A DNA stretch of 64,000 nucleotides from Flammeovirgaceae bacterium (lineage in GTDB: Bacteria; Bacteroidota; Bacteroidia; Cytophagales; Cyclobacteriaceae): assembly GCA_015180985.1 (NCBI GenBank), contig CP054185.1, forward strand, positions 310,001 to 374,000, in the 5' to 3' direction. Each line of letters starts with the position of its first letter. Positions within the stretch are counted from its first letter, which is position 1. Of this stretch, positions 24,869-29,942 are shown one piece after another. Made by a program: the position numbers and the translations under genes. The notes below the pieces were generated by a model that was not told where the DNA came from, did not search any database, and was given only the letters and a program-made list of their open reading frames with translations.

Positions 24869-25183
24869 ATGTTTAAACCTTCAGCAATACTAATAGCACT
24901 TGTATTTATCGGAAGTTGTAATACCTCACAGGTATCTTCTGCCAGCATCACCGCAGTGGGTTTACTGTTTAAACCAGAGTTCACCTCCTATATGTACGGA
25001 ACTCATGCCCTGGAAGAATCCCGAAAGAATAAGCACTATGCCTTAACCAGTTCAACCTGCAACCTGGACAATTATGTAAATAAAACCGTTCGTGTAAGAG
25101 GAAAACGCATACAGGGATACTCTTTAAGCGGAGGGCCACAATTAATAGAAGTTATTTCTGTTGAAATAATTAAGCCTCAATAG
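24869..25183 (+). CDS. Small lipoprotein, unknown function
   Basis: A 104-residue protein with a lipoprotein signal (ILIALVFIGSC, Cys17). The mature part ends in an OB-fold-like strand pattern (NYVNKTVRVRGKRIQGYSLS, then PQLIEVISVEIIKP) seen in small periplasmic proteins. No family can be named. It begins 16 bases after the terminator and is followed by xdhC after 37 bases. Confidence 0.65.
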   Translation: MFKPSAILIALVFIGSCNTSQVSSASITAVGLLFKPEFTSYMYGTHALEESRKNKHYALTSSTCNLDNYVNKTVRVRGKRIQGYSLSGGPQLIEVISVEIIKPQ

Positions 25184-25220
25184 ACTTCGTTTAACTTAGT
25201 TGATTAAGTAAATTCAACTT

Positions 25221-26405
25221 GTGAAAGAACTGAAAGCCATTGTAACAGCCTTCAGGGCTACAGACTACAGCATACGCAAAGCCGCCCTGGCCACCGTGGT
25301 ACGTGTACACGGCTCATCGTACCGGAGCCCCGGGGCCCGCATGCTCATAACCGATGACGGCAAATGGACAGGCTCCATCAGCGGGGGCTGCCTGGAGGGT
25401 GATGCCCTGCGAAAAGCACGGCAGGTGATGATAGACGGAAAACCGCTGACCGTTACGTACGACACCCGCGAAGAGAGCAACCAAAACCTCGGCATCGGCT
25501 TGGGCTGCAACGGGGTAATTGATGTACTTATCGAACCAATCGAACCTTCATCACCACACAATCCAATACTGCTGTTTGAAAAGATCATCAGTCGGAATGA
25601 ACCCGTGCTGCTGGCCACAGCCTGCAAAGGAAAATCAACGGGCTGCAAACTACTGATGGATGAATTCAAGCAGATCCTTTTTAACACGTTTAACCAGGAT
25701 ATCACCGGTTTAATCACTGAAGACTTATCGGCTTTGACAAATAACCGCGCCAGCCGGATAGAGACCTATACCGACACCGATGTCTTCCTCGAACTTATTC
25801 AACCCGCCATTTCACTTATCATTTTTGGCGGGGGCTTCGATGCCCGGCCGGTAAGCGAATTGGCCAAAACGCTGGGCTGGAGTGTACAGATAACCGATGA
25901 ATGCGTGGCCCACATTGCCCCCGTGTTTTTTCCTACTGCCGACAGGCTTTCGCTCTGCCAGCGGGAATTCATTGAGCGCGATTTTTCCATTACTAACTAC
26001 ACTGCCTGCATACTCATGTCGCACAATTATGAATATGACCGTGATGTGCTGAAGAAACTTTTGAAAACAAAAACTCCCTATATCGGTATGCTTGGTCCGC
26101 GCAAACGTTTTGAAAAAATGCTGGACGAATTTGAAAAGGAGGGTCTCACCCTGAACGCTGACGATCTGCACCGCATTCATTCCCCAATTGGACTGGATAT
26201 CGGTGCCGAAACACCGGATGAAATTGCCGTATCGATCATAGCCGAAATTCAAAGCAAGTTCACCAATCGTTCTGGCGGGTTTTTAAAATACCGCAGCAGC
26301 CCCATCCATCAGCGCGACACGAATAGCGACCAGATTTTCAAGCAGGTGTTTCTGGAGGATGCTCAGGGAGTCAAGCCCAGCAAACTAAAAACTTCAGGAC
26401 GCTGA
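25221..26405 (+). CDS. xdhC: XdhC/CoxI-family Mo-hydroxylase maturation factor
   Basis: A 394-residue protein with the N-terminal XdhC/CoxI domain (VRVHGSSYRSPGARMLITDD, SGGCLEGDALRKAR, residues 20-100) and a C-terminal Rossmann domain (LIIFGGGFDARPVSELAKTL, MSHNYEYDRDVLKKLL, YIGMLGPRKRFEKML). XdhC proteins bind Mo cofactor, promote its sulfuration and insert it into xanthine-oxidase-family enzymes such as IorB. The start is GTG. It follows a helper-gene logic with iorAB upstream and a MocA-like gene downstream, but a DUF559 gene has come in between. Confidence 0.93.
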   Translation: MKELKAIVTAFRATDYSIRKAALATVVRVHGSSYRSPGARMLITDDGKWTGSISGGCLEGDALRKARQVMIDGKPLTVTYDTREESNQNLGIGLGCNGVIDVLIEPIEPSSPHNPILLFEKIISRNEPVLLATACKGKSTGCKLLMDEFKQILFNTFNQDITGLITEDLSALTNNRASRIETYTDTDVFLELIQPAISLIIFGGGFDARPVSELAKTLGWSVQITDECVAHIAPVFFPTADRLSLCQREFIERDFSITNYTACILMSHNYEYDRDVLKKLLKTKTPYIGMLGPRKRFEKMLDEFEKEGLTLNADDLHRIHSPIGLDIGAETPDEIAVSIIAEIQSKFTNRSGGFLKYRSSPIHQRDTNSDQIFKQVFLEDAQGVKPSKLKTSGR

Positions 26406-26410
26406 AGTAA

Positions 26411-26860
26411 ATGGCCCGTGTGAATGAAATGACCCGTCTTGCCAGGGAGTTGCGCAAACAACAAACACCCCAGGAAACGCTGTTATGGCAAAAATTACGT
26501 AACCGAAAATACCATAACCTGAAGTTCCTGAGGCAGCACCCGATAGTTTACGATAAGCAAAGGGGTAATTTGAAATTCTTTATTGCTGATTTTTATTGTG
26601 CTGAACTCCGCCTAATCATTGAAGTGGATGGCTTGATTCACCAATTTCAAAAGCACTATGATCAAAACCGCGATGCTATTTTGCGCGACCTGCGAATACA
26701 AGTCATCCGGATAAGAAATGAAGAGCTAGCGGATGTTGATGCGGTTCTTAAAAAGTTGACAAGCACAATACAGGCAACTCTCCCCCCGGCCCCCTCTCTG
26801 CAAGGCAGAGAGGGGGTGTCCGAACGCAGTGAGGACGGGGGTGAGGCAAATATGTTTTAA
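26411..26860 (+). CDS. DUF559 (Vsr-like fold) endonuclease-domain protein
   Basis: A 149-residue protein. Residues 5-115 form a DUF559 domain of the PD-(D/E)xK nuclease fold: RKQQTPQETLLWQKLRNRKY, FLRQHPIVYD, IADFYCAELRLIIEVDG with Asp60 and the Glu71-Val-Asp73 pair as likely metal ligands, and VIRIRNEEL. Residues 123-145 (LPPAPSLQGREGVSERSEDG) are simply the translation of a 69-bp palindromic repeat, so the C terminus is repeat-derived. DUF559 genes often stand alone in genomes next to such palindromes. It starts 5 bases after xdhC. Confidence 0.88.
   Translation: MARVNEMTRLARELRKQQTPQETLLWQKLRNRKYHNLKFLRQHPIVYDKQRGNLKFFIADFYCAELRLIIEVDGLIHQFQKHYDQNRDAILRDLRIQVIRIRNEELADVDAVLKKLTSTIQATLPPAPSLQGREGVSERSEDGGEANMF
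26777..26845 (+). repeat. 69-bp palindromic repeat, copy 1
   Basis: The core is a 12-bp inverted repeat, CCCCCTCTCTGC / GCAGAGAGGGGG, around AAG. A second small hairpin (GTCC / GGAC) follows, and imperfect outer arms CTCTCCCCC / GGGGGTGAG enclose both, giving a possible three-way structure. It differs from copy 2, 210 bp downstream, at 4 of 69 positions, all G in this copy and A in the other. It is translated as the C-terminal residues 123-145 of the DUF559 protein. Confidence 0.93.
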
Positions 26861-26895
26861 ATCTGTGTTAGAACCGCGTGTTAATCATTGACATT

Positions 26896-26903
26896 TATCT
26901 TTG
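26896..26903 (+). promoter_or_regulatory. Candidate minus-7 box before the MocA-like gene
   Basis: TATCTTTG matches TAnnTTTG and lies about 70 bases upstream of the first possible MocA-like start codon, between the two repeat copies. No convincing TTTG box is found 19-21 bases upstream, so support is limited. Confidence 0.3.
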
Positions 26904-26965
26904 GTTAGCTATCCTTTTAAAATCAAGTATGGTAAATTGAAAAAGCGCTTTAACTCGCTAAAAAA

Positions 26966-27664
26966 TTGAAAAACAAAATTCAAAAGACTCTCCCCCCAAC
27001 CCCCTCTCTGCAAAGCAGAGAGGGGGTGTCCGAACACAGTGAGGACGGGGGTGAGTCAACTGTTATACCGATAATCATCCTTGCTGCCGGCCCTTCTTCC
27101 CGGCTTGGTCAACCCAAACAGCTTTTGCAATTGCAGGGTGAACCCCTTATCCATCGAATAACCCGATACGCCAGTGAAAGCAACACCGGCCCTGTGGTGG
27201 TTGTGCTGGGTTCACAGGCTAAAAAAATACAACAAGCAATTACCGATCTGCCCGTACACATCTGTGTTCATACCGATTGGAAAAAAGGTATGGGCAGTTC
27301 CATAAAGGCAGGTTTAAAGTTTGTTGAGAAAAAGTTTCCGGCTGCCGCAGCCACTATCCTGTCGGTGTGCGACCAGCCGTTTCTGGAGGCCGGTCATTTC
27401 ATGAGTCTCAGCAATGCTTTCAGAAAAAAAAGAAGCGAAATTATTGCTTCGAAATATGCAGGAACATTCGGGGTTCCGTGCCTCTTTGGTAAACGCTTTT
27501 TTTCTTCCCTCGAAAAATTGCGCGATGACCAGGGAGCCAAATCAGTATTGGAAGTGCATCGGAATGAAATCGCTTTTATTTCCTTCACGAAGGGTAACGT
27601 TGATGTTGATACGGCAATGGATTGGGAAAAAGTACAAACCCTGATTTCATCAAAACCTTACTAA
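26966..27664 (+). CDS. MocA-like molybdenum cofactor nucleotidyltransferase with repeat-derived N terminus
   Basis: From residue 34 on this is a MobA/MocA-type NTP transferase: IIILAAGPSSRLGQPKQLL is the nucleotide-binding motif, then WKKGMGSSIKAGLK, SVCDQPFL and GNVDVDTAMDWEKV. MocA adds CMP to molybdopterin for xanthine-oxidase-family enzymes, fitting iorAB and xdhC. Residues 8-30 are the translation of repeat copy 2. There is no in-frame ATG; translation must begin at TTG (position given), at the GTG inside the repeat at 27017, or elsewhere. The repeat probably replaced the original start region, so the exact N terminus is uncertain. Confidence 0.85.
   Translation: MKNKIQKTLPPTPSLQSREGVSEHSEDGGESTVIPIIILAAGPSSRLGQPKQLLQLQGEPLIHRITRYASESNTGPVVVVLGSQAKKIQQAITDLPVHICVHTDWKKGMGSSIKAGLKFVEKKFPAAAATILSVCDQPFLEAGHFMSLSNAFRKKRSEIIASKYAGTFGVPCLFGKRFFSSLEKLRDDQGAKSVLEVHRNEIAFISFTKGNVDVDTAMDWEKVQTLISSKPY
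26987..27055 (+). repeat. 69-bp palindromic repeat, copy 2
   Basis: Second copy of the same element, same orientation and same reading phase relative to its host gene. The 12-bp arms CCCCCTCTCTGC / GCAGAGAGGGGG are intact around AAA. It is read as residues 8-30 (LPPTPSLQSREGVSEHSEDG) of the MocA-like protein. The 210-bp offset from copy 1 is a multiple of three. Confidence 0.93.
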
Positions 27665-27810
27665 GCCGGTTTCATTCAATTCATACTTTGGTTGTGTCAT
27701 TCTGATTCAATGGGGTATCCATCAGCCACGTAATAAACATGTAAAACCTGCCGGTAAAAGTTAAAAAATTCGGGTGAACCGAAGGCCTGTGATCCTTATC
27801 CCTACAAGCT

Positions 27811-27818
27811 TATATTTG
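27811..27818 (+). promoter_or_regulatory. Minus-7 box directly before the WG-repeat gene
   Basis: TATATTTG matches TAnnTTTG exactly and ends 6 bases before the start codon. Initiation would fall at or next to the ATG, so the mRNA may be leaderless. No good upstream TTTG box is seen. The preceding 146 bases after the MocA-like gene hold no gene or hairpin that I can recognise. Confidence 0.45.
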
Positions 27819-27824
27819 CGCGCC

Positions 27825-29942
27825 ATGCGATTAGTTACCATACTGCTTGTTTTTCTTACGCATATAACACAGGCGCAGGCTAATGCTTTTCAACAGTTTG
27901 AGGAAGGCGGGGAAATCGGGCTGCGCAACAGCCAAGGCGTTGTGGTAATCCCGGCAAGGTACGAAGCACTCGGCTGGAGCGATCATTCATTCTCGCTGAT
28001 TACAACCGTTACCGGCTACAAACTGGATGGAAAATGGGGACTCATCAACACCTCGAATCAACGAATTACACCACCTGAATATGACGGGCTGGTACCCGCA
28101 GACAGCCGGCACATTCTGGCTGTAAAACAATCACCGGTAACTTTCCGAATTAAAACCGGCTGCCTATCGGCCAATGGAAAAATCATCATCCCGTTTGACT
28201 ATACCGGTATTAAACTCCATGGCCTGCGGGCTATAACCTACAGCCTTGACAAAGACAATCAATTAAAATACGGACTGATTGACCTGGAGAACAACACTAT
28301 ACTGCCAGCCTTGTACCAAAATATCTATCCATTGGGAAGCCTGCGGTATGCCGTGCAAAATACATCCGGTAAAACCGCTTTGTTTACAGAAAACGGAAAA
28401 GCGATTACCAGTTTTGTAATCGACAGCATTGGCCCGCTGCAAAATGATCGGGCTGTTTACTATCAGGACGGCCGGCAGGGCCTGATAAACCGTGATGGCA
28501 CAATGATAAAAGATGCCATTTATCGCGAAATCAAATCAGAAAACTACAACTGGTATGGAAGGCTCTCTGACGAGTGGATGGTACTTTCTTCCTCAAATAC
28601 CATTGCCAAAAGACTGGCAGGTGATTCACTTGTCGGGCTAAGCGATGGACGATTCAAACTCGTTACCACACATGGAACAGAACTGCTGGATGAACAGCTT
28701 AATCCGGTAACCACCAAACGGTTCAACTCCATTTCCGGCTTCAGCAACGGTATGGCTGTTTTCTCGGATGGAGATAAAAAGGGTATCATCCGAAGTAACG
28801 GCACGATAGTTTTGCCGGCCGCATATCATGAAGTCGCCATCGGCAGCACCCATCTCTTCGTTGCCGAAAATTTTTCTGGCACCCTTAAATGGTCACTCTA
28901 CAATTCAACCGGCCAACGCGTAACAAAAAAAAACTATGCGCAGATTGGCGAACTCAATGAACACCTCTTTTGGGTTACCGAAAACGGGTACCAGGGCGCT
29001 ATCAACAAACTTGGTGATGAACAGATTGCCTGTGTGTTCGACAGCCTGTTGGAAACGAAAGGCAGCCTGGTGGTTGTAAAGTTCAGGGGGCAGTATGGCA
29101 TCATTTCTGAAAAAGAAGAATGGATTGTAACACCACAGCGAAATCCTATCCGATTGATTACCAGCGATCGCTTCCTTGAAAATTCGGGTAACCTGATAAC
29201 CCTGAAAACCTTGGGTGGAACTATTTTGTATTTCACTACGAACAAAATTGAAGTTGAGCAAGAAAAATTAACCGAGCATCTTTCAGACGGTGGGAAATGG
29301 ATTATCAACATGAATGGACAAATCATCTCACGTGAACTGCCCCCTTCTGAACAAACTGAGTTGGTATGGCCGGCCACCGAAGGTTATCGGATGATAAAAC
29401 GCAACGGCCGCTACGGCTTTATTGATAACCAGGCCCGGCTGATGATTCCCAACCGCTACGAAGAAGCCAAACCATTCAACGAAGGACTGGCGCCCATTAA
29501 AATCCGCAACAAGTGGGGATTTATTAACCACGATGACAAAATTGTGGTGCAACCGGTGTATGAAAGCGTTTCCTCATTCGAAGCCGGTTACTGCCGGGTA
29601 AAACTGAACGGAAAATACGGACTGATTAATAAAACAGGAGAACAGGTTTTGCCAACCCGTTACGATGAACTGACTGTACTGCCGGGCGGGAGAATTCTGT
29701 TAAAGTCGGATGGCTCGTTTGGCCTGAGTAGCCCGCATGGCGATGTATTGCTTTTTCCGAAATACGATGTGGTAACTGATTTAAATAATGGCTTTGTTAT
29801 TGTGGCGCAGCAAGGAAAATACGGACTGGTTGATTTGAAGGGCCTTACCACCATTCCGCTTATGTACGATTATCTTTTTTTCAATCCGGCAGCCGGTACT
29901 TACGTGGGCCTTGTAAAAAAATCGTGGGAAGAAATAAAGTAA
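27825..29942 (+). CDS. WG-repeat protein, secreted
   Basis: A 705-residue protein. I chose the ATG giving MRLVTILLVFLTHITQAQA, a signal peptide; an earlier in-frame start adds 17 residues upstream of it and would lie before the promoter box. The rest is a chain of about fifteen WG/KWGLI-type repeats of roughly 45 residues, for example KWGLINTSNQRITPPEYDGL, RYGFIDNQARLMIPNRYEEA, KWGFINHDDKIVVQPVYESV and KYGLINKTGEQVLPTRYDEL. These beta-rich repeats probably bind proteins or glycans at the cell surface; function unknown. It is convergent with floA. Confidence 0.88.
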   Translation: MRLVTILLVFLTHITQAQANAFQQFEEGGEIGLRNSQGVVVIPARYEALGWSDHSFSLITTVTGYKLDGKWGLINTSNQRITPPEYDGLVPADSRHILAVKQSPVTFRIKTGCLSANGKIIIPFDYTGIKLHGLRAITYSLDKDNQLKYGLIDLENNTILPALYQNIYPLGSLRYAVQNTSGKTALFTENGKAITSFVIDSIGPLQNDRAVYYQDGRQGLINRDGTMIKDAIYREIKSENYNWYGRLSDEWMVLSSSNTIAKRLAGDSLVGLSDGRFKLVTTHGTELLDEQLNPVTTKRFNSISGFSNGMAVFSDGDKKGIIRSNGTIVLPAAYHEVAIGSTHLFVAENFSGTLKWSLYNSTGQRVTKKNYAQIGELNEHLFWVTENGYQGAINKLGDEQIACVFDSLLETKGSLVVVKFRGQYGIISEKEEWIVTPQRNPIRLITSDRFLENSGNLITLKTLGGTILYFTTNKIEVEQEKLTEHLSDGGKWIINMNGQIISRELPPSEQTELVWPATEGYRMIKRNGRYGFIDNQARLMIPNRYEEAKPFNEGLAPIKIRNKWGFINHDDKIVVQPVYESVSSFEAGYCRVKLNGKYGLINKTGEQVLPTRYDELTVLPGGRILLKSDGSFGLSSPHGDVLLFPKYDVVTDLNNGFVIVAQQGKYGLVDLKGLTTIPLMYDYLFFNPAAGTYVGLVKKSWEEIK

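Follow-up and report, generated by a model that had tools for sequence, protein, structure and literature searches.

Palindromic repeats that lie in frame within protein-coding genes are represented by the Rickettsia palindromic elements (RPE). These elements are named in PMC5656822 and PMC3767692, and translated palindromic repeats are also described for enterobacteria (RUs; PMC2759123). The DUF559 unit considered here resembles RPE and RU in that its palindromes are read in frame in coding genes (copies 1 and 2 of the window, which is the whole 64,000-nucleotide stretch of DNA that was analysed, and the palindromes in UvrA and GcvT of the same genome). RPE and RU, however, occur in other taxa and have other sequences, and no linked nuclease gene was found in their descriptions.

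A linked gene is common to this unit and the REP/BIME repeats with their RAYT (TnpA-REP) proteins (PMC3733652, PMC8266576), in which dispersed imperfect palindromes accompany one gene thought to be their mover. In the DUF559 unit the linked gene encodes a Vsr-like nuclease and not an HUH (Y1) transposase, and the elements are often intragenic and translated.

EDxHD homing endonucleases share with the unit a related nuclease domain, the location of the gene in host genes and same-site horizontal transfer. I-Bth0305I is the type of this family according to reviews (PMC3943268), and a DUF559 gene was placed in the family in a genome paper (PMC9403480). As far as the work of Taylor et al. (2011) is cited in these two papers, I-Bth0305I comes from a phage group I intron, has additional DNA-binding regions and acts on a target nearly 60 bp long, whereas the DUF559 unit has no evident intron or intein, encodes essentially the nuclease domain alone and is bounded by palindromes. 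Inteins and intein-borne homing endonucleases are similar in being in-frame nucleases in conserved proteins with a sporadic distribution. In contrast, the DUF559 inserts (~150 aa) leave little room for splicing blocks and presumably are not spliced out.

Translated palindromes (RPE, RU), REP–RAYT pairs and EDxHD homing endonucleases are known separately. Their combination, a non-splicing association of a nuclease with palindromes over several phyla, appears to be new; no description of a palindrome link was found in the literature searched on DUF559. The locus in the window is probably a homing-like selfish unit, made of a nuclease and palindromic ends, which travels with neither intron nor intein and survives by remaining translatable. 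Such a unit would supply a candidate function for the widespread but functionally uncharacterised DUF559 family, and it would offer dispersed C/T–G/A palindromes lacking an explanation both a candidate origin and a candidate mover.

The DUF559 unit between xdhC and mocA

The DUF559 (Vsr/EDxHD-like) nuclease gene (26411–26860, 149 aa) is preceded by xdhC (25221–26405; PF13478 and PF02625) and followed by a mocA/MobA-like nucleotidyltransferase ORF (26966–27664; PF12804, E = 6.9e-36), all on the forward strand. This order was proposed in a sequence-only reading of the DNA, and Pfam confirms the identity of DUF559 (PF04480, E = 1.7e-25, 89.4 bits at a cut-off of 20.6), of XdhC and of the MobA-like NTP transferase. 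The same reading held that xdhC and mocA belong together; in most congeners the two genes are directly adjacent with nothing between them.

The two 69-bp copies reported earlier, 210 bp apart in the same orientation, were recovered with 65 of 69 identical positions in the best register (26777–26845 and 26987–27055). The full repeat extends over 101 nt at 86% identity (26749–26849 and 26959–27059), and copy 2 therefore also includes a duplicate of the final ~11 nuclease codons (26959–26992, forward strand, 5' of palindrome copy 2). The peptides encoded by the duplicated nuclease 3' end are KKLKNKIQKTL and KKLTSTIQATL. Palindrome copy 1 (26779–26851, forward strand) consists of outer C-rich/G-rich arms, an inner hairpin (26790–26816) and a small second hairpin; copy 2 occupies 26989–27061 of the same strand, with the inner hairpin at 26999–27027. 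The inner perfect inverted repeat, closed by a 3-nt loop, has the 12 bp claimed for both copies only in copy 1, and copy 2 has 13 bp. Folding compared with dinucleotide shuffles gave z values of −5.2 (copy 1) and −5.5 (copy 2), which 0 of 200 shuffles matched.

Both palindromes are translated as the sequence-only reading had stated: copy 1, read on the forward strand as TLPPAPSLQGREGVSERSEDGGE, forms residues 123–145 of the DUF559 protein, and copy 2, read in the mocA frame, forms residues 8–30 of the MobA-like protein. The first ~30 codons of the mocA ORF (listed from TTG) are element-derived, the extension being absent in most relatives, and the PF12804 domain begins at residue 37. By eye, the ~109-bp spacer between the copies (26850–26958) has no similarity to the mocA start or the DUF559 body, which disfavours a tandem duplication as the source of both copies. 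Rfam gave no match in positions 25000–28500, and PADLOC gave only weak matches, to restriction-type models.

The xdhC–mocA junction is found in different states among relatives. In G153 it is filled by DUF559 and one palindrome, which share one frame with mocA. G150 retains only a scar, in which the beginning of the nuclease and the end of the palindrome are left; G017, which belongs to another genus, has a truncated nuclease with the palindrome end, and the junction is empty in most congeners. The junction seen at copy 2 (nuclease 3' end, palindrome, mocA) occurs once in G153, and copy 2 corresponds to the element/mocA junction retained there. The window copies look like one 3' terminus and a second, partial copy of that terminus, not like two flanking insertions. 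The window nuclease is 76% identical to that of G153, similar to the neighbouring genes; by this identity, recent movement of the window copy is not indicated, and the insertion, shared with G153, is old. The unit would have been inserted at the xdhC–mocA junction before the lineages of the window and G153 separated, and it would have been lost, bar the scar, in G150, with the second, partial copy of its 3' end present in the window.

The host genome, a single contig of 3.38 Mb, contains two DUF559 genes, and both sit at palindromes. The second gene (C1:806607-806927) forms an in-frame N-terminal fusion with a HutF-like enzyme, so named on the basis of sequence, and a palindrome read as PSPRPSGTPLPRERGGGEG joins its 3' end, in frame, to the HutF-like part. 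A search with the 69-bp element itself gave a near-local result, namely the two close copies and three weak relatives. The palindrome class is dispersed: its pattern occurs at 15 sites as against 0 for a reversed-pattern control, three of them at the two DUF559 genes and 12 solo. Translated solo palindromes lie in frame within UvrA, at the C-terminus of GcvT and ahead of QueG.

The near-local distribution of the exact 69-bp sequence could be explained by a mere local duplication that chances to be translated and has no wider meaning. This is scarcely credible, being contradicted by the association at independent loci, by the other DUF559 gene present in this genome and by the arrangement shared with G153.

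Palindromes at DUF559 genes and the kinship of the nuclease

The palindrome class is of the pyrimidine-purine type CCCCTCTCC..GGAGAGGGG, and pyrimidine-first hairpins were counted. The family set comprised 60 DUF559 loci from the window's family with up to ~10 kb of flank per side. The GTDB set comprised 78 loci obtained in a separate scan (Bacteroidota, Cyanobacteriota, Chloroflexota, Pseudomonadota, Myxococcota, Patescibacteria, Latescibacterota, Planctomycetota). The scan used five closer sequences, because 19 diverse DUF559 sequences gave too variable an alignment.

In the family set, part of which had been inspected before the hairpin class was set, a palindrome lies at ≤300 bp from 22 of the 60 DUF559 genes as compared with 6 of 1200 control positions. 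The GTDB set, whose five query sequences come from palindrome-flanked loci and may favour palindrome-bearing clades, gave 38 of 78 genes against 23 of 1220 control positions. Hairpin density within 300 bp of the gene is 0.95/kb (family set) and 1.71/kb (GTDB set), falling to 0.0099/kb and 0.0234/kb, respectively, beyond 1 kb; for near versus far pyrimidine-first hairpins, p = 2e-20 and 7e-23. Direct repeats flank 22 of 59 DUF559 genes (4 of 295 control positions). The longer flanking repeats have only local copies in G059; in G124 their remote copies are one long copy (86%) and short pieces, of which some lie at that genome's other DUF559 gene. A perfect-arm palindrome is absent within 300 bp of about half of the DUF559 genes, and none of the 15 viral-contig genes examined has a palindrome.

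At the level of the 148 family genomes, a strong DUF559 match is present in 22 of 27 palindrome carriers and in 55 of 121 others (p = 0.001). All eight genomes with at least seven palindrome copies have such a match; G021 and G097 carry palindromes without it. The palindrome class, if not the exact element, is widespread and associated with DUF559, as the proposal of a selfish unit had supposed. None of the outcomes that the sequence-only reading named as refuting it was observed in full.

Alternatively, the palindromes could be REP- or MITE-like sequences moved by a RAYT/IS200-type Y1 or another transposase, the DUF559 gene being a repeatedly captured passenger. Y1_Tnp is present in 26 of 27 palindrome-carrying genomes and in 95 of 121 others (p = 0.03), and solo palindromes outnumber nuclease-linked ones, as the 12 of 15 sites in the host genome illustrate. 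However, the only Y1 gene of this genome with a listed position (one of two matches) is >600 kb from the nearest palindrome found, and DUF559 is the gene consistently enclosed by palindromes in many genera and phyla. The palindrome type also follows the nuclease clade, which argues against a passenger: one clade has CCCCTCCTT-type arms and the rest mostly TCTCC-type arms (p = 1e-9, shared ancestry being ignored). Movement by a transposase is considered unlikely.

The nuclease itself is conserved at E22, D60, E71-D73-G74, H77 and D84, of which E22, D60, E71, D73, H77 and D84 are invariant in 19 homologues. Going by the EDxHD name, the acidic and histidine residues are presumably catalytic. A profile of 19 members matches 3hrl (E = 2.2e-32), an endonuclease-like protein of Neisseria, in agreement with the N. 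gonorrhoeae locus described below, and 3r3p (E = 2.3e-7), the mobile-intron homing endonuclease I-Bth0305I. By profile similarity, I-Bth0305I is the nearest characterised enzyme to the DUF559 nuclease. The likeness to RAYT transposases drawn in the sequence-only reading finds no support, since the nuclease is not an HUH transposase and, among characterised enzymes, stands closest to a homing endonuclease. The central proposal of that reading, that a Vsr-like nuclease and palindromes make up a selfish unit which entered a pair of Mo-cofactor genes, is well supported by the genome-wide and cross-phylum association, by the adjacency of xdhC and mocA without the unit in most congeners, and by gain, decay and horizontal transfer of the units.

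VsrA, a DUF559 protein of Caulobacter, has a proposed role in mismatch repair (PMC12907096); DUF559 functions may therefore differ, and not all members need be selfish. This proposal and the Vsr-like fold would suit a VSP-like nuclease serving the host in the repair of mismatches or hairpins that arise at palindromes, with the linkage produced by repair-induced duplication round its own gene. A repair gene would not predict in-frame insertion in unrelated enzymes, filled/empty polymorphism at the same site or insert-specific horizontal transfer, and this explanation is regarded as improbable.

Residence in proteins, transfer and a possible homing mechanism

Many DUF559 domains are located inside long open frames. 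In-frame inserts occur in LeuRS, IleRS, MetRS, ValRS, MetH, UDP-sugar epimerase, HsdR, HsdM, N6-MTase, HisF and other hosts. Pfam places host domains on both sides of the insert in HsdR, MetH (3 of 10 proteins scanned), IleRS and others; the other host names (LeuRS, MetRS, ValRS, HsdM etc.) are based on sequence and partly on Pfam. The insertion places are variable loops and linkers, and the translated palindromes are themselves Pro/Ser/Gly/Glu linkers (e.g., LTPSPSPQERG). In LeuRS the inserts are ~150 codons long, nearly all of it DUF559 and linkers, and a Pfam scan of ten further fusion proteins revealed no splicing domain. The HsdR of G031 (L115, ORF of 1334 aa) contains, besides its DUF559 insert, several more translated palindrome-like peptides, for example FPSDGGVSASSGRGG.

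Several of these hosts are restriction-modification proteins, and the PADLOC matches, though weak, are to restriction models. In-frame fusions could accordingly be viewed as chimeric enzymes selected for an added function (e.g., phage defence in HsdR/HsdM), with the palindromes as recombination debris. The hosts, however, also include LeuRS, IleRS, MetRS, MetH, UDP-sugar epimerase and HisF, and the fusions are scattered among close relatives, which makes selected chimeras very improbable.

LeuRS is occupied at two sites, site 1 in G158, G149, G161 and G137 and site 2 in G065 and G154; scars remain in G148 and G156, and other relatives have no trace. Elements of both sites form a single clade in the nuclease tree. 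In one pair of relatives, G158 and G149, other than the window copy, silent third positions are equal at 136 of 144 places in the insert (94%) and at 482 of 791 in the host gene (61%; p = 4.5e-18, flanks slightly raised), which implies that the insert recently passed from one species to another at an identical position in LeuRS. Such same-site transfer, as read from silent positions, is a hallmark of homing, and the pattern, which is the strongest evidence for mobility, is hard to obtain by descent. A direct repeat is not evident at the LeuRS junctions, where the empty-site relatives are only ~80% identical and a target-site duplication or a clean boundary is therefore unreadable.

In MetH the insert occupies one and the same linker in Cytophagales, Flavobacteriaceae, Raineya and a Chloroflexota bacterium. 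Three changes on the nuclease tree, forced by the starred branches, are required to account for these inserts, and by this topology the MetH-linker insertions are independent. At the 5' junction of queG in genus g1 (L321-L336), there is either nothing, a solo palindrome (as in the host genome) or a DUF559 unit. The queG 5' end is a hotspot, and the DUF559 unit there has a palindrome type different from the solo one.

Co-occurrence in several phyla, in-frame residence, filled, empty and scar states, one insert-specific transfer and kinship with a homing endonuclease are direct observations. Under the proposed homing-like mechanism, the nuclease would break an uninterrupted target or a palindrome, and repair from an element-bearing copy would insert the unit. 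The palindromes could serve as recognition or end sequences, as recombination homology and as a stop-free spacer. With a C/T-only arm in front of a G/A-only arm, TAA, TAG and TGA are all impossible and every frame is stop-free, so that the unit can live within coding sequence without splicing. This property may be the reason why the C/T–G/A composition recurs. Solo palindromes would be remnants or non-autonomous derivatives of the unit.

A broader interpretation is offered tentatively: selfish elements of one class, embedded in proteins and not spliced, could occur in multiple phyla. Each would consist of a minimal EDxHD nuclease bounded by stop-free pyrimidine-purine palindromes, would home from gene to gene and from species to species, and would be maintained as a translated insertion in essential enzymes. 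Solo palindromes of this class might account for some orphan repeats, possibly including BoxC of E. coli. If the interpretation is true, homing-type nucleases can spread without an intron or intein by means of translatable ends, and they leave permanent peptide insertions in core enzymes, aminoacyl-tRNA synthetases and MetH among them.

E. coli K-12, a standard laboratory strain with ycjD and ~19 palindromes, would make the question testable. The ycjD gene (L172:3001-3556, sapF-ycjD-fabI) belongs to DUF559; its 3' end continues into a degenerate SPSP-type palindrome, and a full 44-bp palindrome lies ~180 bp 3' of it. This palindrome was found in 5376 of 5426 E. coli genomes (median of 19 copies per genome) and ycjD in 3365 of 5426 complete genomes. 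The two look like the same system as the DUF559/palindrome units, from which ycjD differs in being intergenic. The 44-bp palindrome is possibly the published BoxC repeat (56 bp, 32 copies; PMC2267715). The sapF–fabI interval (L289, L290, L291, L296, L297) was rejected as a clean empty site, since the ycjD-less strains inspected have an RND/MFS efflux operon there, that is, an allelic replacement.

Two further loci were noted. On a plasmid of Synechocystis sp. B12 (L174:2331-4855), the in-frame peptides SPLAPSPKGEG and LPSPVGEG bound a DUF559 gene whose neighbours are a DUF1156 fragment and a hypothetical protein; the DUF559 gene looks as though it had interrupted a DUF1156 gene. In Neisseria gonorrhoeae (L176:2860-3900), the palindrome-encoded peptide RPLSLWERVRERA precedes the DUF559 gene, and near-identical repeats of ~280 bp, with two palindromes each, are located 3' of it.
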